A stretch of 64,000 nucleotides of DNA from Phycisphaerae bacterium (GTDB lineage Bacteria; Planctomycetota; Phycisphaerae; UBA1845): contig JAGFJJ010000026.1 of the NCBI GenBank assembly GCA_024102815.1, forward strand, positions 1 to 64,000, read 5' to 3'. Shown piece after piece: positions 741 through 64,000 of the stretch. The first letter of the stretch is position 1. Each line of letters opens with the position of its first letter. The notes under the pieces were generated by a model that saw only the letters and a program-made list of their open reading frames with translations, made no database searches and was not told the origin of the DNA. A program made the translations under genes and the position numbers.

Positions 741-825
741 GATTTTATCCAAGCATTGCCATGAGCCTGTCCAAGCCTGCGCAGAGCTTTTCATGAGCTT
801 TCATGAGCAAATCCAAGCCGTCGAA

Positions 826-5056: not shown

Positions 5057-5718
5057 GCTATCTCCTCACCCGACGCCCCCCCGTGGCCACGCGGGCCACC
5101 CTGGAGCGAGAACGCGGGCCGGATGTCCGCCCCGCCCCAGATGTGCTCGCACAAGGCATCAAGTTCGGTTTGGCGATCGTGCACCTCCACAGGCGCGCTT
5201 GGTAGGCGATTGCCCGTGATCGTGAAGAACTTTGCCCTGTCGTAGACTTCAATCACACCATCTTCGAGGTAGGCCTTGCATTCTCTCACGGTCTTCTTGG
5301 CCAACACGAAGACCTTCACACCGCGCCCCGATGGGCTGATTTCGCTGTAACTGGCGAGGCTCTCGATGAACTCGCGTGCCCATGGTTTGAGTACTCCAGA
5401 CTCCCCGTCGATGCAGTTGTCCAAGTCAACACCGGCGAATGGGTCATCCTCGGTGAACACGAACCCAACGCCAACGACGTCCGTCCGGCGGCGAAGTGCC
5501 TCGCACGCCTCGTCAAACGACGCCTAAGTCTTCGAGTCAATGGTGGAAGCGGCGCACCCGTTCCTGGGATCAACAGGCACCTTCGTCGTTTTGCCGCCGC
5601 GATTGACGTATCTCCACACAACCCACTGTGGCCGTTCCTGCAGGCACATGGGAACGGCTAGAAGCAACTGCACTTCGTCGACTACAGCTGCTGCAGATGT
5701 ATGAGTCGGAACACTCAT
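5053..5718 (-). pseudogene. Primase/polymerase-type N-terminal domain gene with in-frame amber codon
   Basis: Two open segments in the same frame are separated by one TAG (5524-5526). The first 64 codons hold the start of the family (Q-W-V-V-W-R-Y, K-V-P-V-D-P-R-N-G). After the TAG come A-S-F-D-E-A, G-V-G-F-V-F-T-E-D-D-P-F and G-V-D-L-D-N, then P-S-G-R-G-V-K and F-F-T-I-T-G-N. These match the N-terminal catalytic domain of phage/plasmid primase-polymerase-like proteins. The TAG sits where the family usually has Trp before x-S-F-x-E-A, so one G-to-A change in TGG explains it. The 5' end overlaps the DUF1580 stop by four bases and the 3' end overlaps the ParB-like start by four. A helicase domain is absent. 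Confidence 0.7.
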
Positions 5719-6092
5719 TTAAGTCCCGCTCTGTCGAGTTCGTTCTCAGCTTCCTCGATCTGACGCAATCGATAATCTGTGTTTTTTGGGGAGAGCTGTT
5801 TTCGGCGTCGTCGACGTGGTAGAGGTTCGACCGTGGAGGCAGCGGCCACTTGCGCAGCATCGGCAAGCTGGAAGTATTCCGCGTCGGCTTCGGCGAGGCG
5901 TTGGCCGAAATCGGCCAGCCACGCAGCGGTCGTGAAAATCCTTCCGCCGAGACGACAGTGCTCGAGGCGGATCGTCTGGCCGCCGCGAGTCTTCACCCCT
6001 TTGCGGCACCATCGCCAGACACAGGACACATGCGGGTGGCCGGGCACATCCTTGCTTGCTTCAGCCAGCGTTAGGTAGTCGGAGAGAGACAC
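5715..6092 (-). CDS. DUF1580-family protein (HTH-like, planctomycete type)
   Basis: A 125-residue protein with the DUF1580 pattern: L-T-L-A-E-A, P-G-H-P-H-V-S, V-W-R-W-C-R-K-G-V, then L-G-G-R-I-F-T-T-A-A-W-L. The family is largely planctomycete-restricted and resembles excisionase-like winged HTH proteins, so it may control excision or the downstream replication genes (inference). The start is a GTG (6090-6092) with GGAG about ten bases upstream. An inverted repeat 17 bases before the start could be its operator. It is the first gene of a four-base-overlap operon with the primase-like and ParB-like genes. Confidence 0.75.
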   Translation of the reverse strand: MSLSDYLTLAEASKDVPGHPHVSCVWRWCRKGVKTRGGQTIRLEHCRLGGRIFTTAAWLADFGQRLAEADAEYFQLADAAQVAAASTVEPLPRRRRRKQLSPKNTDYRLRQIEEAENELDRAGLK

Positions 6093-6108
6093 GCGAAGGA
6101 CTCCAAGA

Positions 6109-6128
6109 CTTGCACTCGTTTGTGCAAG
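6109..6128. promoter_or_regulatory. Inverted repeat, candidate operator before the DUF1580 operon
   Basis: CTTGCAC, six spacer bases, GTGCAAG: a perfect seven-base dyad whose near edge is 17 bases upstream of the DUF1580 GTG start. Size and position suit a dimeric repressor site. Binding is inference. Confidence 0.4.
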
Positions 6129-6165
6129 CCTAGGAGACCATGCAATTGAGGGTCAACGACACGTA

Positions 6166-6198
6166 GTCGACCTGTCATATCGAATATGACACGTCGAC
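6166..6198. promoter_or_regulatory. Extended 33-base inverted repeat between two element genes
   Basis: Outer GTCGAC on both sides, inner GTCATAT and ATATGAC around a CGA centre, with one mismatched position between them. It lies after the stop of the upstream unknown gene and about 74 bases before the DUF1580 start. There is no T-run, so it looks more like an operator or recombination site than a terminator. Confidence 0.4.
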
Positions 6199-6207
6199 GA
6201 AATGTCG

Positions 6208-6954
6208 TCAGCACTCTTCGTTGATGATGCGCTGAATCGTGCGCTCGGTGAGTCCAAATGTACTGGCCAGTTCTTCATAGATCTTCCCGAGCTGTTTGCG
6301 TGGCGATTTTCGACGCTTCTTGGCGAACTCATTTCGTATTCGAGCATCGCGTTCCTCATTCCGCCGGGCCTTATTCGCCAGATCGATGCTCTGCTTATTT
6401 TCCAGTCCACGTCGAGCCAATGGCTCAAACCGGTCCAGCGTCAGTCGAGCGTATTGATAGCCAATGAACGCCGCGAACAGGAGGCCTTCGTTGACCTTGT
6501 GTTTCAGGGGTGATTTCCTTTCGCGCAGTTGCTCCGGCAACTGCTCCTCCATCGCCGAAAGAACAGTGTCGAGATCCCGCAGACCGCGCAAGATGTCACA
6601 CGCGGCGTGCGCCGAACTCGGGGCATTCGTCGGGAGGGCGTGCGGCCACTCGGACGACGGTATGTCGGTCAACACCCCGTTGACCTTGGCTCTCCTCGAA
6701 TACCGCTGCAGTATCCGCAAGGCCGCCCGCTCGACGATTTTCCTCAACCGATCCGAAGGATCGAGCATCGGTGACCCGTCGTATTGGCAGGTGCGCCGCT
6801 CCCACTCGAGGATCCGACGCACGCGCCGAACTCCGAATCGCATGATCTCCTGGTAGCGCTCCACCTCATCCTTGTTGAGTTCCCGTGCTGTCAGCGATTG
6901 AGTGACGGCCTTAGGGAAGACCGGCCCGGTGATTTTCAGTTTCTTTTTTCGCAT
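6208..6954 (-). CDS. Unknown basic protein with C-terminal helix-turn-helix
   Basis: A 248-residue protein I do not recognise as a whole. It is basic at both ends. The last 30 residues (G-K-I-Y-E-E-L-A, F-G-L-T-E-R-T-I-Q-R-I-I) read as a Trp-repressor/HTH_23-like recognition helix. The middle contains helical segments with no catalytic motif. The start has AGGTGA about seven bases upstream and lies 27 bases after the recombinase stop, so the two are likely cotranscribed. A DNA-binding regulator of the element is the simplest guess. Confidence 0.55.
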   Translation of the reverse strand: MRKKKLKITGPVFPKAVTQSLTARELNKDEVERYQEIMRFGVRRVRRILEWERRTCQYDGSPMLDPSDRLRKIVERAALRILQRYSRRAKVNGVLTDIPSSEWPHALPTNAPSSAHAACDILRGLRDLDTVLSAMEEQLPEQLRERKSPLKHKVNEGLLFAAFIGYQYARLTLDRFEPLARRGLENKQSIDLANKARRNEERDARIRNEFAKKRRKSPRKQLGKIYEELASTFGLTERTIQRIINEEC

Positions 6955-6981
6955 CTTTTCTCACCTGGAATGGGTGCCTGG

Positions 6982-8335
6982 CTACCCGATCCTCTGCATG
7001 ATCTCGACAACCTTGGAGTGGTCGCGCTCGGCGTAACAGGCATCGGTCACGTACGCGCTGGCGTGTCCAAGGACAAGCTGCGCGGCCTCCAGGCCGAATT
7101 CGCGCCGGAGAACAGTCGCCGCGGAGTGACGGACTTGATTTACATGGAATCGATGAGCGCGCCGCCAAGCCCGGAGCTCGTTCCACAGCCCTTCGGACTT
7201 CAATCGTCTGTACCAGCGCGTCGTCGATTCGCCCGTCCGCCTTGCAAGCCCACCCGTCGGCGGGAAGGCCCGGTCGCAGGCATATTGCACGGCGCGGTTG
7301 TAACTGCCGGTCGAGTAGCGATCAGCCGGACGCCGGTGAGGTGACTCTTGCCGATTCGCGCCCGGTTCGTTTCCCTGACCGGCAACGGTCTTTCGCTGTT
7401 TGCGCCTCATCTCGCGATACTCCGCTTCCGACTCCGCAGGACTGAACAGGAACTGATCCGTGGCCCGGCTCGTCAGAAACTCCCGAACAATCTCCTGTGC
7501 CTGGGGTCCCAAGAAGATCACGCGTTCACGCTCCCGGAAGGCATTCTTGTGCTGTTCCGGCCTATACAGCCAGAGCCCAGCAGCATTATCGAATTCAATG
7601 TCGCACGGTCGCATGGCCAGCAGCTCTCCGGGTCGGGCACCTGTAAAAACCTGAAGCTGTACCAAGGCACGATGGGGACTGGAAAGATGCGGCGGTACGG
7701 CATCGATCGTTGCCTGTGGAACAGGCAGGACCTTATCCGTTTCGCGCGCTTCCGTACGACCGCGGCGCAGGGGCTCGACGGTACGGAGAGACTCGTGGAC
7801 TGATACGGGCACCAGCTCACGTCCCGCCGACCACTTGAACATGTGCCGAAGTCGCTGCACCTGGGCGTTGATGTACTTGCGCGACCAAGGCTTTCGCTCC
7901 GGCTCGGCGCCGCGGATCATCTCCTGCCGAAGCAATCGGAGTTTCTGCGGACTGAACACTCGACGGCCGGCGTCCGCCCAAAGAACTGCCGCAGCAGGAT
8001 GAGCGCGCCGTTGATCGCCTGGGCGTGTTTGGGGCGATAGTAGCCTTTGGCCCAACGCCAGTACTCGCGGATGACTTCCACGATGGTGTTCGCGTGGGCC
8101 GAGTTAGAAGGTGCCTCTCCTTCCATCGGCGGGAAGCGTCGCTGGTTGGCCTCCCAAGCGGCAATCACACGGTGGTACCGCTCGCGGCTTTCTGCAGTGC
8201 CGTAGTCGCCGAGCCAGTAATCGCGGCGCTTCTTCGAGAGCGAATCGGTTAGCGTGACAATCGCCTGGGTGTACCCCGTTCGGCGCCGGTAGGAAGGCAT
8301 TCTCGGGGCGTTTGGACCGTTTTTTTCGTAGGCAT
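6982..8335 (-). pseudogene. Tyrosine recombinase (element integrase) with two frameshifts
   Basis: The catalytic half is intact: T-G-A-R-P-G-E (Arg codon near 7635), N-Q-V-R-H-S-A-A-T, L-G-H-A-S and Y-A-E-R-D with the nucleophilic Tyr. The N-terminal SAM-like domain is in another frame (8300 to about 7960), and the joint lies near 7954-7960. A second shift is implied at the start: ATG at 8333-8335 has a strong AGGAGG six bases upstream but is one base out of frame with the body, across a run of seven A. Both need a -1 correction, consistent with two single-base losses. The His of the usual H-x-x-R box is Asn, as I recall for planctomycete integrases. It abuts the tRNA-Gly 3' end, as expected for an integrase. 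Confidence 0.75.
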
Positions 8336-8453
8336 GGGCGGCCTCCTGGACGCGTTGCGCGGTGTTACACCGCGCGTTCTTACGTCCCAGGCCGCACTGC
8401 CGAACGCTGGCAGGTAACCGTAACTAACGGTTTCGGCGTGGTTTATATCCAAA

Positions 8454-8524
<71 letters not shown>

Positions 8525-8965
8525 AGCTCGATGCAACTGTCGCCAAGATTTCGGCAGCCACAATCTCAAGACCAATTGCGCGCGGCTTAAACTCTTGGCG
8601 TCCCAATTCTACCGCGCTGATTGACTTTTGGAAGCGTCAAGATCCTCCGTGGCAACGCATAGTACGCAATGGAACGGCGTACCCACGCGAACCTTCCCGC
8701 AGCGGGGGCGGCCGCGGGACATCCAACTTCAAGCCTGCCGCACTCAGTCCCGAGTTTCCTGATACGTCCTTCGGCGGAAACCGGGTCCTATTACGAAAGC
8801 AGAATGGTCAGAATCTTACCATTCAGGAACAACCAGAGCCGACAACGGGGTCGGTCAAACGTCGAGATCCCAACTCGCAATCGCGCGTTCGCGCTGGACC
8901 CGGAATCATCCGATCGCCATGAAGCCCGTATCCGCGACCGAAGAAGCGGAATCTGCCCTGTCAAA
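8525..8965. other. Intergenic, no gene seen
   Basis: About 440 bases between the tRNA and the aldolase remnant. The open frames here have no family similarity and no ribosome site. The stretch may be degraded sequence flanking the insertion. Confidence 0.5.
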
Positions 8966-9241
8966 TTCACGGAAATCGGATCCAAGGCCGTCTTTACAGT
9001 GGAGGACTATGTCGCTGGGTGCAAGCCGCGCGGCCACATCGTCTACCCCCCGACGACCCTGGCAGGGTTTGAGAACGCACATAATCGCGCGGGCGATGTG
9101 AGCTTTCCGCAAACTGAGGCAGAGCGAGTCTGCTCGGAAGCCGGGAATCGGGGAGTCGCCACCTATCTGGATGGTGCGCAGCTTTGGAACGCGGCCGTGG
9201 CCTTGAACGCGTCGCCGACGAACTTGATCGCGGATCAGTAA
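8966..9241 (+). pseudogene. Remnant of a low-specificity threonine aldolase
   Basis: About 90 codons match the middle of the beta-eliminating lyase/threonine aldolase family: a V-F-T-V-E-D segment, F-E-N-A-H-N-R-A-G-D (usual E-N-T-H-N-R-A-G), and Y-L-D-G-A-Q-L-W-N-A-A-V-A-L (usual H-L-D-G-A-R-L-W-N-A-A-V-A-L). The frame stops before the S-K-G-L-G-A-P box that carries the PLP lysine, and the N-terminal third is missing. The fragment cannot be active. It sits just outside the tRNA attachment site. Confidence 0.65.
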
Positions 9242-9646
9242 CCGCACCGCGAACCGACTGCCTGCTTTTGTAGACCTGCCCCAATTCAAATTGTCAGTTT
9301 CGCGCGGTCCAACCGACCCCGAGCAGAACCTCCTGGACCCTCCGCCCGCGGGGGCCACGAGCACCGCTTTCTCGGCCGAAAATCGCTATGCCCCGAGCAC
9401 GCTCGCGATACCCGATCAAGACTCGGAGATTTGTTAGCATGGGAAGTCTGATAAGAACAGGAAATCTGCGGCGCAGGTCAATATATTATCTATCTTGAAA
9501 TGTGCTCATTAAATGGGATAGAATCCGCCGTCAGTGCAAGGCGACCGCTGTTTCCGGGTCGGAGCGGCGGGAGTGACATTGCATATCGTACGAGTCGGGT
9601 CGAGACCGGCTCAGGGGCTCGTCAACGCATACGAGGGGAAAGGACT
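9242..9646. other. Intergenic before the VPLPA gene
   Basis: About 400 bases with no supported gene. The last third is AT-rich and holds the candidate promoter listed separately. Confidence 0.5.
9495..9524 (+). promoter_or_regulatory. Candidate sigma-70-type promoter for the VPLPA gene
   Basis: TTGAAA (9495-9500), an 18-base spacer, and TAGAAT (9519-9524) in a locally AT-rich patch, about 120 bases before the start codon. Confidence 0.4.
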
Positions 9647-10414
9647 ATGAAGAGAGGAAGATTGCTGGGAGGAATCGCCGCCTTGGGGTTGGCGATCGGA
9701 ATGGGCAGCATCGCCCGCGCGGATCTGACAACCGTCAATCCGCCACCTGCGGGTGAGGCGACGCATGCTCAGATTCTTGACCACATCTATGGTGGAACGT
9801 TCGTCAGCGGCGGCGTCGGCATCTACACGAACGGCGTCGTGACGGTCACCCGCGTCGACGATCGCCTGCCGGGTGGGGGTCCGGGTAGCAACCTGAACCT
9901 GATCACCGGCACGCCGGGGCTGCCCACGACCGATCAGTGGTGGGAAGACGGCATTTCGTACACGGCCGCTGAGGCGAAGTTCGCCGGGCTTGCTCAGGAG
10001 TTCGGTTTTGACACAGGCTCGGGCTATCAGAAGCTGTTCGACGTGTCCATGACGGGTCCGACAGGCTTCGACGTCTCCGGCAGCGGCGTTCACCACTTCC
10101 CGATGGGTCAGCCGTTCGAGTGGATCCGCAGCGGTGGCGGTAATCCCTACTCCTCGGTTGAGGCCAACAACGTCGACCAGCTGGATCACTTGGTGACCTA
10201 TGCCGTGTCGTCGCAGCGCTTCGATCCGGACGAGCATGTCTGGCTGCTGTTCTGGGAAGACAAGCCCGGTCCGCTGAATAACGTCTCCGACCGCGACTTC
10301 AACGATCTCGTGGTCGAGCTTCGTGCTTCGATCATTCCGCTGCCCGGCGCCTGGTTGCTCGGCGTCGTGGGCCTCGGAGCGGTCGGCATGGTTCGCCGCC
10401 GGATGACGGCCTGA
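9647..10414 (+). CDS. VPLPA-type sorted exported protein with DUF4114-like motif
   Basis: A 255-residue secreted protein. Residues 1-25 form a signal peptide ending A-R-A-D. The C-terminus has P-L-P-G-A-W-L-L-G, a hydrophobic helix and R-R-R, the tripartite VPLPA/PEP-CTERM signal cleaved by exosortase-type enzymes. Just before it, D-R-D-F-N-D-L-V-V-E resembles the acidic loop of DUF4114 domains, often a calcium site. The start at 9647 has GGGGAAAGGA upstream and is preferred to a longer frame. The gene faces a convergent exported-protein gene across two hairpins. It is probably an envelope or matrix protein; its ligand is unknown. Confidence 0.8.
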   Translation: MKRGRLLGGIAALGLAIGMGSIARADLTTVNPPPAGEATHAQILDHIYGGTFVSGGVGIYTNGVVTVTRVDDRLPGGGPGSNLNLITGTPGLPTTDQWWEDGISYTAAEAKFAGLAQEFGFDTGSGYQKLFDVSMTGPTGFDVSGSGVHHFPMGQPFEWIRSGGGNPYSSVEANNVDQLDHLVTYAVSSQRFDPDEHVWLLFWEDKPGPLNNVSDRDFNDLVVELRASIIPLPGAWLLGVVGLGAVGMVRRRMTA

Positions 10415-10450
10415 CTTGCGAACACCCGGCCTGACACAGGCCATTCATGA

Positions 10451-10468
10451 CTGACACCGAAGTGTCAG
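10451..10468. terminator. Small hairpin downstream of the VPLPA gene
   Basis: CTGACAC and GTGTCAG pair around a four-base loop, 37 bases after the stop codon. There is no T-run, so terminator activity is uncertain. Confidence 0.35.
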
Positions 10469-10482
10469 CGGCTTCCTCTCGG

Positions 10483-10535
10483 GGTGATCCGTCTCCGCCA
10501 GAATCGGACAAGAGGTCCGGCGGAGGCGGGTCACC
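10483..10535. terminator. Long hairpin between convergent genes
   Basis: Arms of about 17 bases (10483-10499 with 10519-10535) pair with few mismatches around a 19-base loop. The hairpin sits between the VPLPA gene and the stop of the convergent PDZ-like gene and could end transcription from both sides, though no T-run follows. Confidence 0.5.
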
Positions 10536-10590
10536 CTTTGGGGACCGAATCGGATTCGGCCCCCCACCACGTTTTCGAGCCATTCGACGA

Positions 10591-12669
10591 TCACTCTGCC
10601 GATTCCGCAAACCGCAGGGAAATCGTGGAATCAAACCGTTTCCCATCGGCCGATCGCACCGAGAGATTCACGGTCTGCACGTACTCGCCTATCACCGCAA
10701 ATTGACGTAGGAGATTCAGTGACGAAGAGCGTGTAAGATCCTGGGCGCGGGATCCGATGAGACGCGGCAACGGGACGTCGAGCATTTCTCCCGCGCGCAA
10801 TACGCGAATAGTCGGGCCGGGTGCGGTGCTGTTCGCGACCTTTCGGTTGAAGTCCTCGCGCATATTCCCAAGAGACAGAAGCTTCCCGTCCACGCCCAGA
10901 ATCAAATCACCGGCGCGCAAACCGGCGTCCACCGTTGTCTGCAAATCGCGCGTCACGACGAGGCAGTTGGGAGAGCTCTCCTCTTTAAGCTCAATCGGCG
11001 GCGGCGCGGCTCTTCCTTCCGTGAGGCTCTCCTCGGGCCACCAGAGCATGTTCCACAACAATGCGGCGTCGCTGCCGCGGTCCTCAAGCCAGCCCTGAAG
11101 CACTTCGGCGGTCAGCCCGGCTTGGGCCACCGCCAGGAGACGCGTGTCCGGCTGGTTCTCTTCAGACGATTGGAACGCGGCCAGCCCGCCAAGCGTCGGA
11201 GCAAGCCCAGCCTGTGCGTCCAGGATGCGCTCGATATGCGTACGATCCAACGCCAGGATGACCCAATCGCGCCAGGACGTCCATGCAGGGTCGAGCGACT
11301 CCAGAAGCCGCGCGAATGGGAGCTTGGATTTTCGCGCGTAGCTTTGAAGTGGCACATGCACAATCGGCGCCCCAAGATACGGCGCGAGCTTGAAGGTCGG
11401 AGCGGAATCGGCCGGCACGGGATCGACGGCCTGGATCAGCGCGATGAGATTCCTCGCCAGCTTCGTGATCTCGTTACGAACCGCCCGCGCATCGGGGGAT
11501 CGAACCAGTACGGCGAATTGCGGACCAAGACCCTCTTCGCTCAGGTCCTGCCCCCAAACCACGATTACATCGGGGCCCACGCGGGCGAGAACGGGATTGC
11601 GCTCCCCCTCCCCGCGACTGAGATCGCTCAACAACTGCAGGTAACGTTGGACGGCATCGGCGGATCCGGACGAGCCTCCGCGGCTGAAGGCCCGTCCGAA
11701 ATCAAGCGTCAGTCCGACCGCCGCCAACGTCGTCTGCGGAAGGCGTCGCATTCGCTCCAGCGCCTGACGGGACAAGGGGGCTCCCACACGCGCGGACGGA
11801 AGGTCGGCGCTGATAGAAATCTCCAGTCCTGCGGATCGTGCATACACGCCGACGAGTGCGCGCGATGTGTTCCTCGAGTCGGCGGCACCATCCGACTCCT
11901 GGCCGGGTGCAATTGCACTGGAAGATCCCGACGCGCGGATGGCGCCGGCCTTTGAATGGGGAGAATTCCCGCTAATGGGCGAACTGCTCGTCGCATTCGG
12001 CATTCGGATCGCCGCATAGAAGACCGCGAGAGCGTCCGGAGGAATTCGACGTGACATTTCGAGAAAGTCCTTTCGGGCGGTGATCGGCCGTCCATGCACC
12101 CCGCCAAGGACCATCAGTTTCTGGACCGTTCGCACAAGCAGTCCGTCGCTGAACCTTCGAGCAACCGCGATCACGCCTTCACGCGCGCAGACATAGGTAC
12201 CATCGCGCATCCGGAAAAGTCGTGCCTGGTCCACCATGCGCTCGGACTGCCGCCGCTCTTTGGGAAACCACCGCTCAAGCGCTGCGTCGTTGGGCAGACG
12301 GATCAGCCAGGTGCCCCGCCGGACATCTCCGAGGGCCGGTGTAACAATCAGCCATTCACAGGAAAGAAGCTGATCCACGGGGATTGCGCTTTCCGGGCCG
12401 AGGAAACGGGTCGCCATGTTGGCAAGACTTGCGGCTGAAGAATCCCCCCCGTCGAGGTCGGCGATTTTGCGCGCAAGCGGCCAGGCATTGGCCCGCTTGA
12501 GCTCCCTCTCGACTTTTTCAGGAGCGGGCAAATGGATGTACCAACTGGCTTGCTCCGGAACAAATTGCTCCAGAGGAATTGGCTCGCCGGGGGCTGCTCG
12601 ACCGGAGGCCCCCAGGACCACGGCGATCAACAAGACCGCGGTCGGTTTGAGAGCGATGTTCCGCCGCAT
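10591..12669 (-). CDS. Large exported protein with C-terminal PDZ-like domain
   Basis: A 692-residue protein with a signal peptide (residues about 1-25: M-R-R-N-I-A-L-K-P, a hydrophobic core, G-R-A-A-P). The long middle has no family I recognise. Near the C-terminus, V-D-A-G-L-R-A-G-D-L-I-L-G-V-D-G-K and the strands around it form a PDZ-like peptide-binding repeat. I chose 12669 because the frame upstream only mirrors the anti-sigma gene; 12696 is an alternative. It follows a sigma/anti-sigma pair on the same strand, so it may be the regulated envelope target or part of the sensing system (inference). Confidence 0.7.
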   Translation of the reverse strand: MRRNIALKPTAVLLIAVVLGASGRAAPGEPIPLEQFVPEQASWYIHLPAPEKVERELKRANAWPLARKIADLDGGDSSAASLANMATRFLGPESAIPVDQLLSCEWLIVTPALGDVRRGTWLIRLPNDAALERWFPKERRQSERMVDQARLFRMRDGTYVCAREGVIAVARRFSDGLLVRTVQKLMVLGGVHGRPITARKDFLEMSRRIPPDALAVFYAAIRMPNATSSSPISGNSPHSKAGAIRASGSSSAIAPGQESDGAADSRNTSRALVGVYARSAGLEISISADLPSARVGAPLSRQALERMRRLPQTTLAAVGLTLDFGRAFSRGGSSGSADAVQRYLQLLSDLSRGEGERNPVLARVGPDVIVVWGQDLSEEGLGPQFAVLVRSPDARAVRNEITKLARNLIALIQAVDPVPADSAPTFKLAPYLGAPIVHVPLQSYARKSKLPFARLLESLDPAWTSWRDWVILALDRTHIERILDAQAGLAPTLGGLAAFQSSEENQPDTRLLAVAQAGLTAEVLQGWLEDRGSDAALLWNMLWWPEESLTEGRAAPPPIELKEESSPNCLVVTRDLQTTVDAGLRAGDLILGVDGKLLSLGNMREDFNRKVANSTAPGPTIRVLRAGEMLDVPLPRLIGSRAQDLTRSSSLNLLRQFAVIGEYVQTVNLSVRSADGKRFDSTISLRFAESAE

Positions 12670-12793
12670 GTACCAATCCGCGTCGAATGGACTCATCAAG
12701 CGCTCAAGCAGCGCGCGGTACGGCTGAAGGGTACCGGGCACAACAACTCGGGGAATCCTCGCGCCCGGAACCCCGGAATTGCGCGATTCCCGT

Positions 12794-13459
12794 CTAAGGA
12801 TTCTTCGGCTCTTGTGGCAACGGAACCGTAGCAGGACTGTTCGCAGGCGACGACGCAACGTCTTCCACGACGGCGCTGGCGGCGGGACGGTTTCTTCGGG
12901 CCTCTTCCAGAATGTCAATGGTTTGGTAGATCGTGAGATCAAGAACGCCCTGGACGGTGCTGATGTCTTCCTGGGTCCGCTCGAGCCAATTCTCCAATGG
13001 GCGAGGTGCAACCTCACTTGTATCGGCCTGAGCAGCCTCTGTCGGCGGGGCGAACTCGTCGAATAGCCCGGGGTCAAGATCAAGCGCTTCCGGCGACGCC
13101 TCTTCCACCACGCCCGCCACACGACCCTGATGTCGCCCGGTCAAGACCGCCGTAACCGCCAAGGCCAATACGGCCGCGGCGGCTATCGGGGCACCAATGC
13201 GGAACGTTCGGGCACGCCAAAACGAGCGAACGGCGCGTCGTTTGCTGACGCATTCAAGCAGCCGATTCTCGAAGTCCGCGCGCAAACGTACCGGTTCGCG
13301 ATCGGAAGCGATGATTTGTCCGGTTACTTCCAGAAGTGCCAGCTTGCGCCGACATGAGGCACAACGGAGCCGATGGGCGCCAAGTTCCGTGGCCAAGGCC
13401 GGCGATAGCTCGCCGTCGAGATAGGCATTGAAGAGTGCTTCAGCGTCCGCGCATCGCAT
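12794..13459 (-). CDS. Zinc-binding anti-sigma factor (membrane-anchored)
   Basis: A 221-residue protein with the ZAS motif near the N-terminus: C-A-D-A-E-A-L-F-N-A-Y-L-D-G-E-L, then H-R-L-R-C-A-S-C, i.e. H-x3-C-x2-C. One membrane helix (about residues 90-110) separates this cytoplasmic domain from an acidic extracytoplasmic part. Such proteins hold an ECF sigma factor inactive until an envelope signal arrives. The gene begins 62 bases after the sigma-factor stop and is followed by the exported PDZ-like protein, so all three are likely one operon. Confidence 0.85.
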   Translation of the reverse strand: MRCADAEALFNAYLDGELSPALATELGAHRLRCASCRRKLALLEVTGQIIASDREPVRLRADFENRLLECVSKRRAVRSFWRARTFRIGAPIAAAAVLALAVTAVLTGRHQGRVAGVVEEASPEALDLDPGLFDEFAPPTEAAQADTSEVAPRPLENWLERTQEDISTVQGVLDLTIYQTIDILEEARRNRPAASAVVEDVASSPANSPATVPLPQEPKNP

Positions 13460-13521
13460 CGCGTTTTCATCCTTGCGGATTCGGTGCCGCTCCTCGGCAC
13501 CGCTCGAATCTCCGCACTCTT

Positions 13522-14148
13522 TTACCCGGCGCCGGCCGCGCGATTGCGAAATTCCCGAATGTCCCGCTCCTCCACCGTTTCCAACAGTTCCCGAAGCCGG
13601 GCACGGGCACGGTGCAGATGGCTCTTGACCGTGGCGACGGGCACTTCCAGAACCCGGGCAATTTCCTGGCAGCTCATCTCATGGCGATAAAAGAGCACGA
13701 CCGCAGCCCGCTGGGCGTCGCTGAGCCGATCAACCGCCTCCCAGACCCGGCCGCGCAACTCGGTCGCCTCTTTCGAAGCCAATCGGTCGGCTCCGCTCTC
13801 ATCGGATGCGGCCGATAGCTGGGCCGTATCCAGTTCGCCTGAGAGCACGGATCGCTTCCGCATCCGGTTGAGGCAAACGCGGTACCCGATGGTAAATAAC
13901 CAGGTGCTGAATCGGTATTCAGACGAAAAGGTATGCAGCGAGGCAAACGCCTTCAAAAAAGCATCCTGACAAACCTCTTCGGCGTCATGCTCGTTGCGGA
14001 CCATGCGCCAGATGAAGGCAAAGAGGCGATCCTTGTGCGCGCGGATCAGCGCGCGGATAGCCCCCTCGTCTCCGCTTTGGGCACGAGCGACCAAAACCCT
14101 CTCGTCGGCACGGTCGGTTTCCGGCGATGCCTTCACAATAGCGTTCAC
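13522..14148 (-). CDS. ECF-type RNA polymerase sigma factor
   Basis: A 208-residue sigma-70-family protein. Region 2 (about 40-105) has D-A-E-E-V-C-Q-D-A-F-L-K-A-F and F-S-T-W-L-F-T-I. Region 4 (about 145-195) has L-S-D-A-Q-R-A-A-V-V-L, M-S-C-Q-E-I-A and V-K-S-H-L-H-R-A-R. There are no regions 1 or 3, as in ECF factors. The start is a GTG (14146-14148) placed by TTGGAGG six bases upstream; an ATG at 14223 would add residues lacking similarity. It precedes its anti-sigma gene and probably controls its own operon. Confidence 0.88.
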   Translation of the reverse strand: MNAIVKASPETDRADERVLVARAQSGDEGAIRALIRAHKDRLFAFIWRMVRNEHDAEEVCQDAFLKAFASLHTFSSEYRFSTWLFTIGYRVCLNRMRKRSVLSGELDTAQLSAASDESGADRLASKEATELRGRVWEAVDRLSDAQRAAVVLFYRHEMSCQEIARVLEVPVATVKSHLHRARARLRELLETVEERDIREFRNRAAGAG

Positions 14149-14289
14149 CTCCACCCTCCAATTATACCCGACGGACACCTGTCCGGGTTGCCTCCGTTCT
14201 CCTACATTATTCGAAATCGGCATGTTCGAAAGGTCACGTGACCTGACACCTACAGAGAAGCTTTATATTATTCCGTTCCAGGCCTCCGC

Positions 14290-14775
14290 ATGGTCCGAAA
14301 ACCACAATCTGATGGAACCATCGGCATAAACCGCAAAGCCGGCCACCGTTTCGAGTTTCTCGAGCGTCTGGAATGCGGCATTGCGCTTACCGGAACGGAA
14401 GTCAAATCGCTCCGCGAGAAAGCTGTCTCGCTGGACGAAGCTTACGCCCGAATTCTGGGCGGCGAGCTCTGGCTCTTCGATGCGCACATTGCGTCCTACC
14501 GATTCGGCTATGGGGCCAATCATCTGCCCACACGTCGCCGCAAGCTGCTGGTCCACGCTCGGCAGTTACGCAAGCTCGTTGCCGCGACGAAGCAGAAAGG
14601 GCTTACGCTTGTGCCCGTCCGGATGTACTTCAATGAACGGGGCATGGCCAAAGTCGAGATCGCCCTCGCGCAGGGGAAAGGAAAGAGCGATCGTCGCGAA
14701 GACCTCAAGGCCAAGGACCACAGACGCGAGATGGATCGGGCCATGCGTCGCGGCGGACGGGGTGGACGATCCTAG
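14290..14775 (+). CDS. smpB: SsrA-binding protein SmpB
   Basis: A 161-residue protein with the SmpB core: N-R-K-A-G-H-R-F, E-C-G-I-A-L-T-G-T-E-V-K-S-L-R, and a basic C-terminal tail (D-R-R-E-D-L-K-A-K-D-H-R-R-E) that enters the mRNA path. SmpB binds tmRNA and brings it to stalled ribosomes for trans-translation. The length is typical. No tmRNA gene was recognised nearby. It is divergent from the sigma factor and convergent with phoU, with only 18 bases between the smpB and phoU stops. Confidence 0.95.
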   Translation: MVRKPQSDGTIGINRKAGHRFEFLERLECGIALTGTEVKSLREKAVSLDEAYARILGGELWLFDAHIASYRFGYGANHLPTRRRKLLVHARQLRKLVAATKQKGLTLVPVRMYFNERGMAKVEIALAQGKGKSDRREDLKAKDHRREMDRAMRRGGRGGRS

Positions 14776-57281: not shown

Positions 57282-58043
57282 ATGGTCATCGCCACTGAAA
57301 AACCGCTATTAGAAGCGCGAGGCTTGGTTAAGCGTTACGACCGCCGGGCTGTCGTTGACGGACTGAGCTTTCATGTCAGCAACGCCGAGATTGTCGGGCT
57401 TTTGGGGCGCAACGGTGCGGGCAAGACGACAACGTTTCGGATGACGGTGGGCATGATCGACCCGGAGGAAGGCTCGGTGTCCTTCGGTGGCCGCGATGTG
57501 ACTTCGCTCCCCATGTACAAGCGTGCACAACTCGGCATGGGTTATCTCTCCCAGGAACCGAGCATCTTCCAGCGGCTTTCCGTTGAGGAGAACCTGCTGG
57601 CCATTCTCGAAACCATGCGGAATCTCTCCCGGCGCGAGCGCAAGGAGAAAGCCCTCCACCTGTTGGAACAATTCGGCCTGACCGTTCAGCGGCGTCAGCA
57701 GGCCCGAACGCTGTCCGGGGGGGAGCGGCGTAAACTGGAGATCGCCAGAGCGCTGGTCACCGACCCCAAGCTCATCATGCTGGATGAGCCGTTCAGCGGG
57801 GTCGATCCCAAGGCCGTCGAGGACCTTCAGGAGGAAATCCTGCGCCTCAAGCGTGAACGTGGCATCGCCATCCTGTTGACCGACCATAACGTCCGCGAGA
57901 CGCTTCGGGTGACGGACCGCAGCTACATCATCAACGACGGCGTGCGTCTGGCGGAGGGCCGTCCGCGCGACCTGGTCCGCGACGCCCTGGTTCGCGAAAC
58001 GTATCTGGGCAACTCCTTCCGGGGGGACGAGTTCGACGAATAA
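57282..58043 (+). CDS. lptB: LPS-export ABC ATPase LptB
   Basis: A 253-residue ATPase. Walker A is G-R-N-G-A-G-K-T-T-T-F, the signature is L-S-G-G-E-R-R-K-L-E-I-A-R, Walker B is L-I-M-L-D-E-P-F-S-G-V-D-P, and the switch His is T-D-H-N-V-R-E-T-L. G-Y-L-S-Q-E-P-S-I-F and D-H-N-V-R-E-T are LptB hallmarks. It drives lipopolysaccharide transport with LptFG, which are not in the window. This implies an outer membrane. Confidence 0.93.
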   Translation: MVIATEKPLLEARGLVKRYDRRAVVDGLSFHVSNAEIVGLLGRNGAGKTTTFRMTVGMIDPEEGSVSFGGRDVTSLPMYKRAQLGMGYLSQEPSIFQRLSVEENLLAILETMRNLSRRERKEKALHLLEQFGLTVQRRQQARTLSGGERRKLEIARALVTDPKLIMLDEPFSGVDPKAVEDLQEEILRLKRERGIAILLTDHNVRETLRVTDRSYIINDGVRLAEGRPRDLVRDALVRETYLGNSFRGDEFDE

Positions 58044-58197
58044 TGGAAGGGCTGCAATTCAAGCCACCGGAACCCTACAATCGGGGTATTGGCGAGCGAT
58101 GAGCCATTGAGCACGACGGCCGATTCCGAACGACCGCGGGGACATGCCGCCAAGGAGTCATTCGCGATTGCCGATTGTGCAACGCCTGGAAGAATCG

Positions 58198-59643
58198 ATG
58201 GACGAAAACGGCGATCAACCCGTCCAGCCGGCCCATGAACGATGGACGGACATGGAAGGCCGGACGTGGGATGTGGAGCTTGCACCGGGGGTAATCGCCC
58301 TGCACGGCGAGCCGGGGCGCATCGAACTCGTCGGGCCGGATATCCTCCGAGATCTCTTTATCTCCCCCTGGGACGGCGGTGTACTGCTGCGCTTCGAGAC
58401 GTTTGACCTGCGCGCCGCTTTCGTACTTTCTCGCGCGGACGCAGAACGCTCGCTTGGAACCGTTGGGTTCCGCCGCTCATCCGCACCGCAGAAGGACTCC
58501 ACCGAGGAAGAGGAGCGTTCGGCAACATCCACCCCGCTGTTGTTCCCCAAGGTTTCCCCCTTGGCCATATGGGCGCTGATCTCCTCGGCGCTGGTATTCG
58601 TGCCGATCGTCGGTCTCGTTCCGGCCGTCGCGACGATGGTCCTGCTGGGATTGCATCGCAGGCGCGTTCGTCGATCGGCCGCCTGGGAGCACTCGCGATC
58701 GCTTTGCCGTGTGGCCGCCAGCTTCCTGGTGTTGGGGTTGGCGGTTTCCGCGATCGGAACATATTGGCTGGTCCGCAACGTACAGGCGCCACGCTCCGCC
58801 ACACCCGCATCCTTTGATATCGAAGGGCCGTCGCTTTCCAGACCCCATTCCAATGACGTTCAAGCTCCGGGTGGCTCGAAAAAAGGCAATGTCCTCGCCC
58901 AAGTCACTGGTGAGGAACGGAACTGGGGGCTGATCGGAATCGGCCTGATCGTCCTGCTGATCTCCCTCACCTTTCATGAGGCGGCGCATGCAATCACGGC
59001 GTGGTGGCTGGGGGACGACTTCGCCCGCCGATTGGGCCGCGTCACGTTGAATCCCGCGGCGCACATCGATTTGTTCGGTACGGTGCTTCTGCCGATTGTG
59101 CTATTCCTCGCCAGCGCGCCCATTTTCGGCTACGCCAAGCCGGTCCCGGTTCGATCGGAAGTGTTCCGCAGTCCGAGGCGGGATGACATACTGGTTTCCA
59201 TCGCCGGACCCGGCGCCAACCTGTTCCTGTCTGCCATATCGCTGGCGCTGCTCCTGGGACTCAGCGGCGTCCTTGGACTTGTGGCACCTGAAGCCCGGCT
59301 GACGGGCCTTGCTTCGCCGGACATCTTCGAACCGTCCACTGCGTCGGGATTCGCCGGCGCCCAGGTCTTCGCAGGCGTCGTCACGTTCCTGCGGCTGAGT
59401 TTCCAGATCAACCTGTTTCTGGCATTTTTCAACCTGATTCCCATCCCGCCGCTCGACGGTTCGTGGGTATTGGGCCACCTCTTTCCGCGAACCATCGGGC
59501 CGCTAATGGATCGCATCCGGCCTTACGGCATCATCATCTTTGCCGTGGCCGTCTTCAGCAACCTGTTTCAATATCTCATGATTCCGATGATCGTGGCGTT
59601 CATTCCCGCTTTGCTGCTGCTGGAGTGGTGTACACCGTTCTAA
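58198..59643 (+). CDS. Site-2-protease-family metalloprotease (M50B)
   Basis: A 481-residue membrane protein. The zinc site is H-E-A-A-H (260-264) in the middle helix, with F-F-N-L-I-P-I-P-P-L-D-G (the N-P-D-G-type second motif) near 420. The first 120 residues form a soluble domain, followed by two helices before the protease core. S2P enzymes cut membrane proteins such as anti-sigma factors. The start at 58198 has GGAAG five bases upstream; a start 54 bases earlier is possible. Confidence 0.85.
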   Translation: MDENGDQPVQPAHERWTDMEGRTWDVELAPGVIALHGEPGRIELVGPDILRDLFISPWDGGVLLRFETFDLRAAFVLSRADAERSLGTVGFRRSSAPQKDSTEEEERSATSTPLLFPKVSPLAIWALISSALVFVPIVGLVPAVATMVLLGLHRRRVRRSAAWEHSRSLCRVAASFLVLGLAVSAIGTYWLVRNVQAPRSATPASFDIEGPSLSRPHSNDVQAPGGSKKGNVLAQVTGEERNWGLIGIGLIVLLISLTFHEAAHAITAWWLGDDFARRLGRVTLNPAAHIDLFGTVLLPIVLFLASAPIFGYAKPVPVRSEVFRSPRRDDILVSIAGPGANLFLSAISLALLLGLSGVLGLVAPEARLTGLASPDIFEPSTASGFAGAQVFAGVVTFLRLSFQINLFLAFFNLIPIPPLDGSWVLGHLFPRTIGPLMDRIRPYGIIIFAVAVFSNLFQYLMIPMIVAFIPALLLLEWCTPF

Positions 59644-59679: not shown

Positions 59680-60591
59680 CTACACAACGACCCGCAAAGC
59701 ACCGGGCACAACCTCCAGTCGGGCAGGCGTGAAACCGACGGGCTCTCCGTCCGCCCAGATTTCGACCCGTTCATCACACTGAATCTCGAGCGTGCGCGTA
59801 CGCAGGAACCTCACGCGGGGATGTCCCTCGTGGCGGCATGAGAGGACCCGGGGCACGAGCCGCAGCGCTTCGAAGAATGAGAGACCGTCGATTAGACAGA
59901 GGTCGAGCAGTCCGTCGTCGGGGCAGGCCGCGGGAGCAATACGAACGGCACCGCCATAGGTTGATGTGTTGGCGGTCGAAGCCACGAACACCGGTTGCTC
60001 GATCACACCGAAATCGCCTTCGAGTCGCAGGCGCCGCGCTCGGTAACGCAGGAGGACGCGAAAGGCGCCGTATACATAGGCCGGGGTACCCTGAAGCGGC
60101 ATGCGCATGTCGTTGACAAAACGGGAGATGTCCGCATCGATGCCCACCGTCGCCACGGTGCAGAAGTAGCGGTCAGCGAGACGGCCAAGATCAACCGGCG
60201 AAGACTGCCCGCGGAGTAGAGATTCCACGATTCGCCGGGGATCGGCCGAGACGCCCATCGCCCCGGCAAAGTCATTGCATCGTCCGGCGGGCGCCAGACC
60301 AAGTGCCGGGCTATCACCGAAGGTCGCCCGGTGCCCCGCCAATGCTCCCGCTACCTCCTGAATGGTTCCGTCGCCTCCGCAGGCGACGACAACTGCCGGA
60401 GATTCATTCTTCCCACAGGCTTCCGATGCCAACCGAGCGGCGTCGCCCCGTGCAGATGTGAAGACAAGAGTGACTTCACGCTTCGCTTTTCTGAGTAACC
60501 TTGCGACCTCGTCGGCGATCCTCTTCCCCCGCCCACGACGAGACGCCGGGTTGGCGATGATGAAGAGTCTGCCGTCGCGGACGTTCGCCAT
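59680..60591 (-). CDS. Diacylglycerol/lipid kinase-like protein
   Basis: A 303-residue protein with the DAGK catalytic fold: I-A-N-P-A-S, A-C-G-G-D-G-T-I-Q-E-V and L-A-P-A-G-R-C-N-D-F (a variant of the family G-T-x-N-D-F-A). The family phosphorylates diacylglycerol, sphingosine or related lipids. The ATG at 60589-60591 is the family start. It is the last gene of a minus-strand lipid operon and follows the dehydrogenase stop by 17 bases. Confidence 0.85.
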   Translation of the reverse strand: MANVRDGRLFIIANPASRRGRGKRIADEVARLLRKAKREVTLVFTSARGDAARLASEACGKNESPAVVVACGGDGTIQEVAGALAGHRATFGDSPALGLAPAGRCNDFAGAMGVSADPRRIVESLLRGQSSPVDLGRLADRYFCTVATVGIDADISRFVNDMRMPLQGTPAYVYGAFRVLLRYRARRLRLEGDFGVIEQPVFVASTANTSTYGGAVRIAPAACPDDGLLDLCLIDGLSFFEALRLVPRVLSCRHEGHPRVRFLRTRTLEIQCDERVEIWADGEPVGFTPARLEVVPGALRVVV

Positions 60592-60608: not shown

Positions 60609-61850
60609 TCACTTCGCCGACGATTCGAGATCGAACACCGTCTTGGTGACGCCGCTGCGGCCCGTACTCATAGCCTGTGCGAATGCTTCGCGGTAGTCCG
60701 TCAGTGGTAAAGGCTCCCCCACCAGGGGCACGAGTCGATCCTGCCATTCGGCCATCCATTGGAGCGCAAGATCGAAAGAATCGCGCGTACCCTCGAGCCG
60801 TGATTCAGGTCCATATGCGTAGGCTGCGCGAATTGACAGCTCCTTGAACCAGATACTCGTCCAGTCCACGCCGCGCGGAATGCCCGGCATGCCCACGAGC
60901 ACGAGCGTCCCGCCCCCGCGCGTGAAGCGGACACCGTCGTCGATGGTCTCGGAGGTCCCCACGCAGTCGAAGACGACGGACGCACCGCCAAGAACGAGCG
61001 GCTTCCCGAATTCGGGCGGAAACACCTCCGCGTCGAGTGCCGTCGCCCAGGCGGCGTAGCGATTTGCGATGGAGCCTTTGCCGTCAATCGCCACATCTGC
61101 TCCGAGTCTGGCAGCATGCTCGCGCTGGTGTCCGTAGCGGGCGACCGCGGTGATCCGTGCCTTGCAGCCGCTTGCTCGAAGGGCCGCGATCGTCAGCAAC
61201 CCGATCGAACCGCAGCCGATGACGAGAACTGAATCGCTTGCCGAAATCGTGGTGCGCAGCGCCCCGTGAATGGCGCAAGCGAAGGGCTCCACCAGCACGG
61301 CCGCGCGATCGGGAATTCCCCCCGGGACTCGGCGGAGCTGGGACCGGTGGGCGACAAACCCACCGCTAAAGCCTCCACCGGTATCGCGGCAGTAGCCGGT
61401 TTGAATACCGGCGGAGATGGCACCGTAGGCAACATTGCGACAGAGCGCATCGTGGCCCGTTGCGCAAGACGTGCAAGGAGGATCGATTCCCCGCACGGAA
61501 CAGCCCAGTGCCGGGCGCAGGACAACGCGATCACCTTGAGCAAATTCGCCGGCCCTGCCGCCGCAAGCGACAACAGTCCCGACAACTTCGTGACCCAGCA
61601 CGAAAGGCATCGAAGTTACCGGGGCGAAGTATGGTGATCCCTTGGCGGCGACCGTGGCGATGTCCGAACCGCAAATTCCGGCCAGGCGAGGCCGAACATG
61701 AACCCACTCCGCACCGGGGAGTTCGGGCGACGGAAATTCCGTCAGCTTCAAGGGTGACCACCGGCTCGTGCACAGGGTCGGTACGCGCCGTCCCAGCCCC
61801 TTGATCAGCAGGTAACGAGGAATACTGCGCTGGAAGAGTAGAGCCTTCAC
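60609..61850 (-). CDS. Zinc-dependent alcohol dehydrogenase
   Basis: A 413-residue medium-chain dehydrogenase. The catalytic zinc site is G-I-C-G-S-D and G-H-E-V-V-G; a Cys-rich structural loop is C-T-S-C-A-T-G-H-D-A-L-C; the NAD site is V-I-G-C-G-S-I-G. The start is a GTG that overlaps the upstream phosphatase stop by four bases (61847-61850), with GGGAG upstream. The substrate is unknown. Its place in a lipid operon suggests a fatty alcohol/aldehyde or glycerol-type substrate (inference). Confidence 0.85.
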   Translation of the reverse strand: MKALLFQRSIPRYLLIKGLGRRVPTLCTSRWSPLKLTEFPSPELPGAEWVHVRPRLAGICGSDIATVAAKGSPYFAPVTSMPFVLGHEVVGTVVACGGRAGEFAQGDRVVLRPALGCSVRGIDPPCTSCATGHDALCRNVAYGAISAGIQTGYCRDTGGGFSGGFVAHRSQLRRVPGGIPDRAAVLVEPFACAIHGALRTTISASDSVLVIGCGSIGLLTIAALRASGCKARITAVARYGHQREHAARLGADVAIDGKGSIANRYAAWATALDAEVFPPEFGKPLVLGGASVVFDCVGTSETIDDGVRFTRGGGTLVLVGMPGIPRGVDWTSIWFKELSIRAAYAYGPESRLEGTRDSFDLALQWMAEWQDRLVPLVGEPLPLTDYREAFAQAMSTGRSGVTKTVFDLESSAK

Positions 61851-62596
61851 GGCGAGGAGACTCCCGGGCCGACAGCATCGCGGGTCCACATCAGCCGGGG
61901 CCAGCCGCGATCGCGCGCGATGCGGCGTAGTCGGGCATCCGGATTCACCGCGTTGGGCCTGCCGACGATTTCCAGCATGGCCAGATCGGCAATGCTGTCC
62001 CCGTACGCGAACGACTGCGACAAGTCCCAGGATCGTTTGCCGGCGATGTCCCGGATGCGGCGGGCCTTCTCATCGTGGCTGATGGGCGTACCAGCCAGTC
62101 GCCCCGTGAAGCGACCATCGCGACATTCCAGCGACGCGCAAACGGTCTCGACGCCACCTATCCAGTCCGCCAGGGGACGGATGACGAAATCCAGGGAGCC
62201 GGTTACAAGAACGATGGAGCGCCCCTGCTGTTGATGCTCACGAAGGCAGCGCAGCCCGTCGGCGTGGATTCGAGGGCGAATGACCTCGCGAAAGCAATCG
62301 GCGCTCTGGTCGACAAGTTCGGACTGCGGGAGGCCGCGATAGTTGCGGTAAAAAACGCGGTTCAGTCGTGTTCGGTCAATTCGGTCGATTGCCAGATATC
62401 CCAGGCATTTCAGAAGAAACCAGGCGTGCCAGAACGAGCGAATTACCGGAGGCAGGCGGCGACGGCGGAAGTAGAGATAGTGGTGAGCGATGGTTGTGTC
62501 GGCCAGTGTCCCGTCGACATCGAAGAACGCCGCGACGCCTGTCGAATTCGCCACGCTCGGCGCCGCATCGCCTTGTGTCAACGTATCGGCACTCAT
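61847..62596 (-). CDS. HAD-IB family phosphatase
   Basis: A 249-residue phosphatase. Motif 1 is F-F-D-V-D-G-T-L-A-D, motif 2 is L-V-T-G-S, the motif 3 Lys is in D-E-K-A-R-R, and motif 4 is Y-G-D-S-I-A-D. The SerB-like cap fits the HAD-IB branch often paired with PlsC acyltransferases. It overlaps the ligase-ACP-PlsC gene by four bases upstream (62593-62596) and the dehydrogenase by four downstream, so all three are translationally coupled. A lipid-phosphate substrate is likely. Confidence 0.88.
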   Translation of the reverse strand: MSADTLTQGDAAPSVANSTGVAAFFDVDGTLADTTIAHHYLYFRRRRLPPVIRSFWHAWFLLKCLGYLAIDRIDRTRLNRVFYRNYRGLPQSELVDQSADCFREVIRPRIHADGLRCLREHQQQGRSIVLVTGSLDFVIRPLADWIGGVETVCASLECRDGRFTGRLAGTPISHDEKARRIRDIAGKRSWDLSQSFAYGDSIADLAMLEIVGRPNAVNPDARLRRIARDRGWPRLMWTRDAVGPGVSSP

Positions 62597-64000
62597 CCCG
62601 CGACGGTCCCTGCGCGAAGCCTATGGACCTCGCCTTCGACGCGCTCGGTCAACTCGTGGAATGCGGCGTAATGGTCGTCATCGGGACCGGGCTTGAGCGG
62701 CGGGACGGGCTCGCCGAAGGCCACAGTAATGACGCCCGGCCGTATGAAGCGCTGCCCCTTGCGGAAAAGCTGATACGAACGGTCGATGTGGACCGGAACA
62801 ATGGGTACCTGACGCTCGATCGCGAGAACCGCGGCTCCGATCTTGAACGGCTGGATTTGCCCGGTAAGGGTGCGCGTTCCTTCGGGGAAGATGAGCAAGC
62901 CCTCTCCCTGACGGAGGGCATTGCTGCACCGCCGCAGGCCTCGGAATCCATCGGCCTGACGATCCACGGCGATGGTGTCCAGCACCTTGCCGAACAGGAA
63001 TCGCTTCAGGGCGGAGTTGAAGAAATAGTCTTCCGCACCCGCGACCCAGACACGGCGTCGCCCACCCACGGCAATGAGCACGGCGGGTGAATCGAGGTGC
63101 GAACCGTGGTTGGGCGTGAGGATGAATGCGCCTTCCGCAGGGATATTCTCGCGTCCGACGGCGCGAACGCGAACGTAGCTGTTGAGGAACAGGCTCATTC
63201 CCCCGCGCACCGCCCAGCGCAGGGGCATCAGCGCCGCTGGCATTTTTCCGTTCTTCTCCGCCGTTTCGGGCTCGGCCAAGCGGCGCTGCCACGACGTACG
63301 CTCTGCGCCGGTTTGTGTCTTCGGCAGGCGCCGGCCGACAATGCGGAGCAGATCTCCGACCCGGGCAACCTTGGCAGCCTGCTCGTCGCCGATACGCATG
63401 TCGAAGCAGGCTTCAATCTGCCCCAGGACATCAATCTTGCCGATGCTGTCGATGCCAAGGTCGAGCAGCAGATGCTGGCGCGGATGGAGGTCTTGCGCCG
63501 CCCTCCGTGATTGCGAGGAGAGTATCGAGAAGACGGACGCAACACCGTCGGGATTCTCGCTCAGAAGGGCTTCTGCGTCCTCCTGATCCTCATGCGTGAC
63601 GTCCATCGACACGGGCGTGGTTGCGACACCACTGTCTTCCAGATCGACGGTCTGACGTATGAGACTCCGCTTGGCCTTGAGCGTCGTGGTGCGGGGCAGA
63701 TCGCGCTCCCAGAAATGCAGCACGGCGATGCGCTGGTGTTCCGGGAGCGTATCGGAAAGCGACTCGATGGACATGCGGATCGTCCGTTCGAGAGACGAAC
63801 GATCGAGTTCCGGCGCGGCGTCGCGATCGGGCACGATCACGGCGTGGACCACGTCTCCCAAGCCGTCCCGCGCCGGCATGCCGAAGACGCAAAGCTCCTT
63901 GACGAACGGCACCTCGCGGTAACGCGCCTCGACCTCGTCGGGATACACGTTCTTCCCGGCGGCGGTAATGATAAGGTCCTTGGACCGGCCCGTCAGGAAC
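62593..64000 (-). CDS. AMP-ligase/acyl-carrier/PlsC acyltransferase fusion (5' part outside window)
   Basis: About 470 codons of the C-terminal part are visible; the gene continues beyond the right edge. First comes the end of an adenylate-forming acyl ligase (G-R-S-K-D-L-I-I-T-A-A-G-K-N, then Y-P-D-E-V-E-A and L-P-R-T-T-T-L-K). Next is an acyl-carrier domain with the phosphopantetheine Ser in L-G-I-D-S-I-G-K-I-D. Last is a PlsC acyltransferase with N-H-G-S-H-L-D and F-P-E-G-T-R-T. The protein could activate a fatty acid, load it on its own ACP, and transfer it to a glycerol lipid. The start is outside the window. The stop overlaps the phosphatase start by four bases. Confidence 0.85.
   Translation of the reverse strand, partial: FLTGRSKDLIITAAGKNVYPDEVEARYREVPFVKELCVFGMPARDGLGDVVHAVIVPDRDAAPELDRSSLERTIRMSIESLSDTLPEHQRIAVLHFWERDLPRTTTLKAKRSLIRQTVDLEDSGVATTPVSMDVTHEDQEDAEALLSENPDGVASVFSILSSQSRRAAQDLHPRQHLLLDLGIDSIGKIDVLGQIEACFDMRIGDEQAAKVARVGDLLRIVGRRLPKTQTGAERTSWQRRLAEPETAEKNGKMPAALMPLRWAVRGGMSLFLNSYVRVRAVGRENIPAEGAFILTPNHGSHLDSPAVLIAVGGRRRVWVAGAEDYFFNSALKRFLFGKVLDTIAVDRQADGFRGLRRCSNALRQGEGLLIFPEGTRTLTGQIQPFKIGAAVLAIERQVPIVPVHIDRSYQLFRKGQRFIRPGVITVAFGEPVPPLKPGPDDDHYAAFHELTERVEGEVHRLRAGTVAG

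Follow-up and report, generated by a model that had tools for sequence, protein, structure and literature searches.

Four closely packed genes at the edge of a genomic window from a Phycisphaerae bacterium raise the question of which lipid they make and by what route. The window, by which we mean the whole stretch of DNA analysed, is 64,000 nucleotides long and consists of positions 1-64000 of contig 26, that is, the first 64000 bases, so that its edge truncates the largest of the four genes. An earlier note on the same DNA had described a fusion of an AMP ligase, an acyl carrier protein (ACP) and a PlsC acyltransferase at the head of a coupled four-gene operon, and had guessed at an ether-lipid pathway resembling that of the bacterial elb clusters. 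Judged from sequence, the operon probably encodes an ElbD-type, AGPS-free pathway for alkyl-ether (or related) glycerolipids, with a LarA-superfamily protein as its partner (Table 1).

Table 1. Genes of the operon, the LarA-type gene of the same genome and the domains of the ElbD-type protein. Gene positions are those of the window unless a contig is named; domain positions are residues of the 1418-aa protein.
Feature	Position	Strand	Basis or remark
elbD-like gene, 3' part, C-terminal 468 codons (ligase C-terminal part, ACP, PlsC)	62593..63999	-	ORF list
Full elbD-like gene, 1418 aa	contig 26:62593-66849	-	Read on contig past window edge
HAD-IB family phosphatase (elbB-like position), 249 aa	61847..62596	-	PF12710, TIGR01490
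Zinc alcohol dehydrogenase family protein (ADH), 413 aa, GTG start at 61850	60609..61850	-	PF08240, PF00107
YegS/DgkB-type lipid kinase (DAGK), 303 aa, ATG at 60591	59680..60591	-	TIGR00147
LarA-type gene of the window's genome	G000:C72:114319-115788 (L210:7268-8833)	-	Stands alone
NAD_binding_4 (fatty acyl reductase)	23-330		211 bits, Pfam
Sterile (fatty acyl reductase)	429-500		48 bits, Pfam
AMP ligase (AMP-binding)	539-921		270 bits, Pfam, well over curated cut-off
ACP	1108-1169		22.8 bits, barely above cut-off of 20.8
PlsC acyltransferase (Acyltransferase)	1227-1355		78 bits, Pfam, well over curated cut-off

All four genes are encoded on the minus strand, and their junctions are as had been described: the HAD gene overlaps the elbD-like gene by 4 bases, the ADH gene, whose GTG start agrees with its homologs, overlaps the HAD gene by another 4 bases, and the DAGK start codon is found 17 bases past the ADH stop at 60609. 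The fusion had been recognised correctly as far as it went, all three of its domains being present, but a fatty acyl reductase (FAR) at the N-terminus, encoded beyond position 64000, was out of its sight. Nor does the fusion head the coupled genes, since outside the window a separate PlsC gene lies upstream and ends one base before the ElbD start. The spacing suggests a single transcript, with an operon of at least PlsC-ElbD-HAD-ADH-DAGK. Farther upstream of PlsC-ElbD, on the same strand, are a DHH-family gene and a RibF-like gene. Within the window, at 57282-59643, genes for an ABC-transporter ATPase (LptB-like) and an S2P-type protease-like protein are convergent to the operon and are kept there in several relatives.

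The domain order of the complete protein, FAR-ligase-ACP-PlsC, agrees with published descriptions of ElbD from Myxococcus xanthus. Among solved structures its reductase part is closest to the fatty acyl-CoA reductase 7eoz, with which it aligns along its entire length (residues 7-504, 304 bits). Y249 and K253 of the reductase, the TSGTT motif of the ligase and the PlsC motifs H1248-x4-D1253 and PEGTR do not vary among 18 family members, and the ACP serine 1135, in a D-L-G-x-D-S motif, is likewise invariant in 18 homologs. On this architecture and the HAD neighbour, and with M. xanthus ElbD known by description, we place the protein in the ElbD type; no Myxococcus or other Myxococcota locus is among the 80 matches listed from one scan of genome contigs. 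The SDR-family gene elbE is not adjacent, the Zn-ADH and lipid kinase following instead; elbE is a mark of the M. xanthus cluster rather than of the ElbD protein. An Aas-type lysophospholipid acyltransferase/acyl-ACP synthetase, acting in phospholipid repair, would have the ligase and PlsC domains in common with this protein, and NCBIfam Aas-like models do hit it with 227 and 183 bits. However, these models need 1221 and 1349 bits respectively, and the presence of FAR and ACP domains and the order of ligase then PlsC also speak against Aas, which was rejected as very improbable. The earlier note had set its reading against a standard Aas enzyme with unconserved neighbours; when this was examined, an ElbD architecture was found, with neighbours that are kept in relatives.

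The remaining three proteins of the operon are assigned by similar evidence. The HAD protein matches PF12710 with 126 bits, well over the curated cut-off, and TIGR01490 with 138.8 bits (cut-off 98.3), and its catalytic residues D26, D28, K177, D200 and D204 are invariant across 34 sequences. For the Zn-ADH, ADH_zinc_N gives 71 bits, well over its curated cut-off, and both C60, H87, E88 and C126/C129/C137 are invariant in 37 homologs. The lipid kinase matches DAGK_cat (96 bits) and YegS_C (122 bits), each well over the curated cut-off, as well as TIGR00147 (157 bits; cut-off 118.65); its GGDG motif is invariant, and the nearest solved structure is that of DgkB (2qv7, 103 bits).

When the order was searched for ElbD, matches at E <= 1e-60 were found in 46 of 114 genomes, the best having 66% identity over the whole length; in five of these 46, all from genus g32 and with best E values of 1.7e-77 to 3.1e-69, the match comes solely from another ligase. 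ElbD is carried by 39 of the 51 genomes in the window's family, which named relatives put among Planctomycetota/Phycisphaerae assemblies, and only two of the order's true ElbD genomes lie outside this family; G002 and G106 are order-level outliers with a partial ElbD. Within the family, HAD and ADH follow ElbD at every one of the 24 loci with a continuing contig, DAGK follows at 18 of the 21 loci with room on the contig, and a separate PlsC lies upstream of ElbD at about half of the loci. Farther afield, ElbD, HAD, ADH, LarA and DAGK are found all together in Poribacteria (L183, L186) and in another planctomycete family (L234), an Armatimonadetes locus has ElbD-HAD-ADH-LarA (L159; DAGK not seen), LarA-ADH is divergent from ElbD-HAD in Chloroflexi (L185), and ADH comes after HAD in Latescibacterota (L174, L181, L182). 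At one of these latescibacterotal loci (L174) a reductase-ligase protein is fused directly to a HAD domain, which supports a shared pathway. The organisms with the operon all seem to be uncultured assemblies.

Two further observations concern relatives. In genus g32, which belongs to the window's family and has no fused ElbD, a different cluster (L126, L127 and L128, at about 3500-14600) contains a HAD-reductase fusion, ligases, an enoyl-CoA-hydratase-like gene, a lipid kinase and a PlsC gene, and the LarA partner occurs in none of the genomes of this genus. At L115:7603-12087 (genome G254) a stop interrupts the ElbD reading frame, and this genome is also without the LarA partner.

In most relatives, a LarA-superfamily gene of about 520-530 aa lies between ADH and DAGK. 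It is absent from this place in the window's genome, where a 35% identical homolog is found on contig 72; the surroundings of the relocated form-B gene were compared and no conserved neighbours were seen. Counting either of two diverged forms, LarA is present in 39 of 39 ElbD-positive and 0 of 12 ElbD-negative genomes of the family (Fisher p 6e-12, a value that ignores shared ancestry and is descriptive only). At four loci a simple gene caller gave an opposite-strand frame and the form-B gene was recovered by tblastn, and in one of the 39 genomes (G071) LarA is present as two contig-edge pieces that together make one gene. LarA also occurs in 16 of the 18 ElbD-positive genomes from other planctomycete families, often beside ADH, HAD or DAGK even with ElbD elsewhere, and is absent from 28 further ElbD-negative genomes of the order and class. 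Five newly tested genomes with fused ElbD (Verrucomicrobia, Latescibacterota, Poribacteria) all have it; five of the eight named genomes tested for LarA had been picked because LarA was seen near ElbD and are not independent evidence. On the ElbD tree one form gives way to the other at least seven times, with one switch falling between the close relatives G055 and G058, and because the function is always kept across these switches they are strong evidence that the pathway needs LarA.

Counting against the proposed pathway, ElbD-like genes without LarA are found in the order outliers G002 and G106, in the planctomycetes G169 and G254 and in the acidobacterial L184. In a set of four ElbD-like genomes without LarA, L180, L191 and L188 each lack either PlsC or a recognisable ACP and L184 has the full architecture. 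LarC (Ni_insertion, PF01969) was considered as a marker of the pathway and discarded: it is nearly universal in the order, occurring in 22 of 22 ElbD-positive genomes and also in 29 of 32 without fused ElbD, and so does not discriminate. Only 9 of those 29 have any Lar_N protein, and LarC (e.g., G000:C32:54894-56021) probably has another role in genomes without fused ElbD. In the open-access literature we found no paper linking LarA or DUF2088 to elb genes.

AGPS was sought with a query from a Latescibacterota cluster, which was verified by 514 bits to the solved AGPS 4bby. At E <= 1e-10 the window's genome gave no match, and there was no AGPS-like match in any of 22 ElbD-positive family genomes or of 8 named genomes with ElbD and LarA; the best hits in these 30 genomes were partial, of at most 137 bits and of the glycolate-oxidase type. 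Conversely, LarA is absent from all ten genomes in which AGPS adjoins a reductase, all genomes in this comparison having been selected by their reductase. The exclusion is not universal, because M. xanthus has both ElbD and AGPS according to the literature. A FAD-linked oxidase near the operon (L001:13077-16055) was rejected as a candidate AGPS, since it has extra 4Fe-4S and cysteine-rich domains, finds its nearest matches in glycolate oxidase and lactate dehydrogenase, and scores 49 bits to AGPS. Between reductase and AGPS in Latescibacterota (L165:4775-6715, L171:10585-12621) lies a protein of ~650 aa with no Pfam match over cut-off.

The Lar_N domain scores 127.8 and 117.1 bits in the two LarA forms, and a predicted model (pLDDT 91) has 9q3k as its best PDB match (E 6.6e-34, TM 0.79/0.87). 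Across the 47 aligned copies, the aspartate and lysine that bind the cofactor are conserved throughout, as are the nickel histidine position and the first catalytic histidine. The second catalytic histidine of racemases (His174) is missing from every one of the 47, so that the partner should not be called a racemase. In the aligned sequences the usual position of the arginine/lysine that binds phosphate in the cofactor site is occupied by other residues, for which reason the protein is treated here as a putative binder of the nickel-pincer cofactor. By sequence and by fold its best match is to LarA_Bw and LarA_Sp (PMC12611868; 9q2u, 9q3j, 9q3k), single-histidine LarA-like enzymes recently solved without an assigned function. 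It shares with them the cofactor lysine and nickel histidine positions and the absence of the second catalytic histidine, whereas it has about 22% identity to them, a different gene context, and a loop four residues shorter with no asparagine at the exact aligned position.

According to Desguin et al., homologs of this kind may catalyse some hydride-mediated reaction other than the inversion of a stereocentre. We propose that the partner may carry out redox chemistry on the glycerol backbone. A more specific version, which we regard as unlikely, has it form the ether bond in place of AGPS: hydride transfer to the nickel-pincer cofactor would transiently oxidise an acyl-glycerol(phosphate) at its C2 hydroxyl, a fatty alcohol supplied by ElbD would take the place of the neighbouring acyl group, and the hydride would go back to the face that it had left, so that a single histidine would suffice. 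A possibility to be taken seriously, without being the one we favour, is that LarA, ADH and DAGK instead build an unusual head group or polyol, for instance by oxidising and epimerising a secondary alcohol, and play no part in the ether bond. The substrates of characterised LarA enzymes are 2-hydroxy acids (PMC7583248, PMC11770544), carbohydrate substrates have been suggested for the nearest solved single-histidine relatives, and the ADH resembles sorbitol and threonine dehydrogenases; on its own, however, such a role leaves unexplained why genomes with LarA are without AGPS, and vice versa.

From the domain architecture, operon conservation, LarA co-occurrence and AGPS absence, all observed directly, we infer the reactions, substrates, products and step order of an ether-lipid pathway as follows. 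The ligase domain of ElbD would activate a fatty acid and load the ACP of the same protein, and the reductase domain would convert part of the acyl supply to aldehyde or fatty alcohol. The PlsC domain and the neighbouring PlsC would acylate the glycerol backbone, and the Zn-ADH and the LarA-superfamily protein, encoded elsewhere in the window's genome, would provide the redox chemistry for putting the alkyl chain on this backbone. The HAD protein would take off a phosphate, and the lipid kinase would phosphorylate the finished alkyl-acylglycerol, channelling it into ordinary phospholipid synthesis.

A complete fatty acyl reductase could also reduce acyl-ACP to an alcohol that PlsC esterifies, and FAR plus acyltransferase would suffice for fatty-alcohol esters, in which case the operon would yield not ether lipids but fatty alcohols or neutral lipids of the wax type. 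This outcome is quite unlikely: the PlsC family works on glycerol phosphate backbones, the accompanying HAD and DAGK point to phosphorylated glycerolipids, and M. xanthus mutated in ElbD loses its ether lipids (Lorenzen et al. 2014, as described in PMC9131029). The guess of an elb-like ether-lipid operon is retained as the best reading; it fits the full ElbD architecture, with its reductase, and neighbours conserved across many genomes and several phyla, and the first interpretation as a whole is partly supported. The LarA-type partner and the lack of AGPS, neither of which could be seen from the window, tell more about the pathway.

The co-occurrence ties together two open questions, namely the steps of ElbD-dependent ether-lipid synthesis and the role of LarA homologs missing one catalytic histidine. 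It also puts forward specific candidate genes for the unsolved ether-lipid step (those for the LarA-type protein, Zn-ADH, HAD protein and lipid kinase) and a means of distinguishing, from sequence, genomes with AGPS-type potential for ether lipids from those with ElbD/LarA-type potential, which matters when bacterial ether lipids are interpreted as biomarkers.

Among known systems, the FAR1/AGPS ether-lipid pathway has a fatty acyl reductase and an acyltransferase in common with the ElbD operon, and some bacterial AGPS clusters (L164, L165, L171) similarly have a DAGK nearby; it differs in having AGPS, which the tested genomes with ElbD and LarA are without. Pontiella has homologs of elbD and yet proved to be without ether lipids (PMC11868695), which speaks against the ether-lipid reading. 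The elb cluster of M. xanthus (BGC0000871) combines the fused FAR-ligase-ACP-acyltransferase with a HAD phosphatase gene (elbB), as here, but has elbA and elbE (SDR family) as well as elbC, whereas the operon described here has a Zn-ADH and a lipid kinase in place of SDRs, a difference that likewise counts against the reading. M. xanthus also has AGPS, which was found neither in the window's genome nor in the ElbD-positive relatives tested, and the linkage of a LarA-type gene to the ElbD operon in relatives of the window's genome is a further difference from its cluster. According to PMC9131029, ElbD accounts for most of the ether lipid of M. xanthus and AGPS for little, the reductase and acyltransferase activities of M. 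xanthus ElbD have not been demonstrated, and the route by which a fatty acid becomes an alkyl ether is still unsolved. The VEPE-like clusters of sponge symbionts from Acidobacteriota and Poribacteria, as described in PMC9426513, share the ElbD architecture and have hydrolases and oxidoreductases as neighbours, and poribacterial members were retrieved here; the main text of that paper makes no mention of a LarA-family gene, a lipid kinase or planctomycete members. The present system is a variation on the known elb kind, and what is new is the tight link of ElbD to a single-histidine LarA-type protein in AGPS-free genomes.
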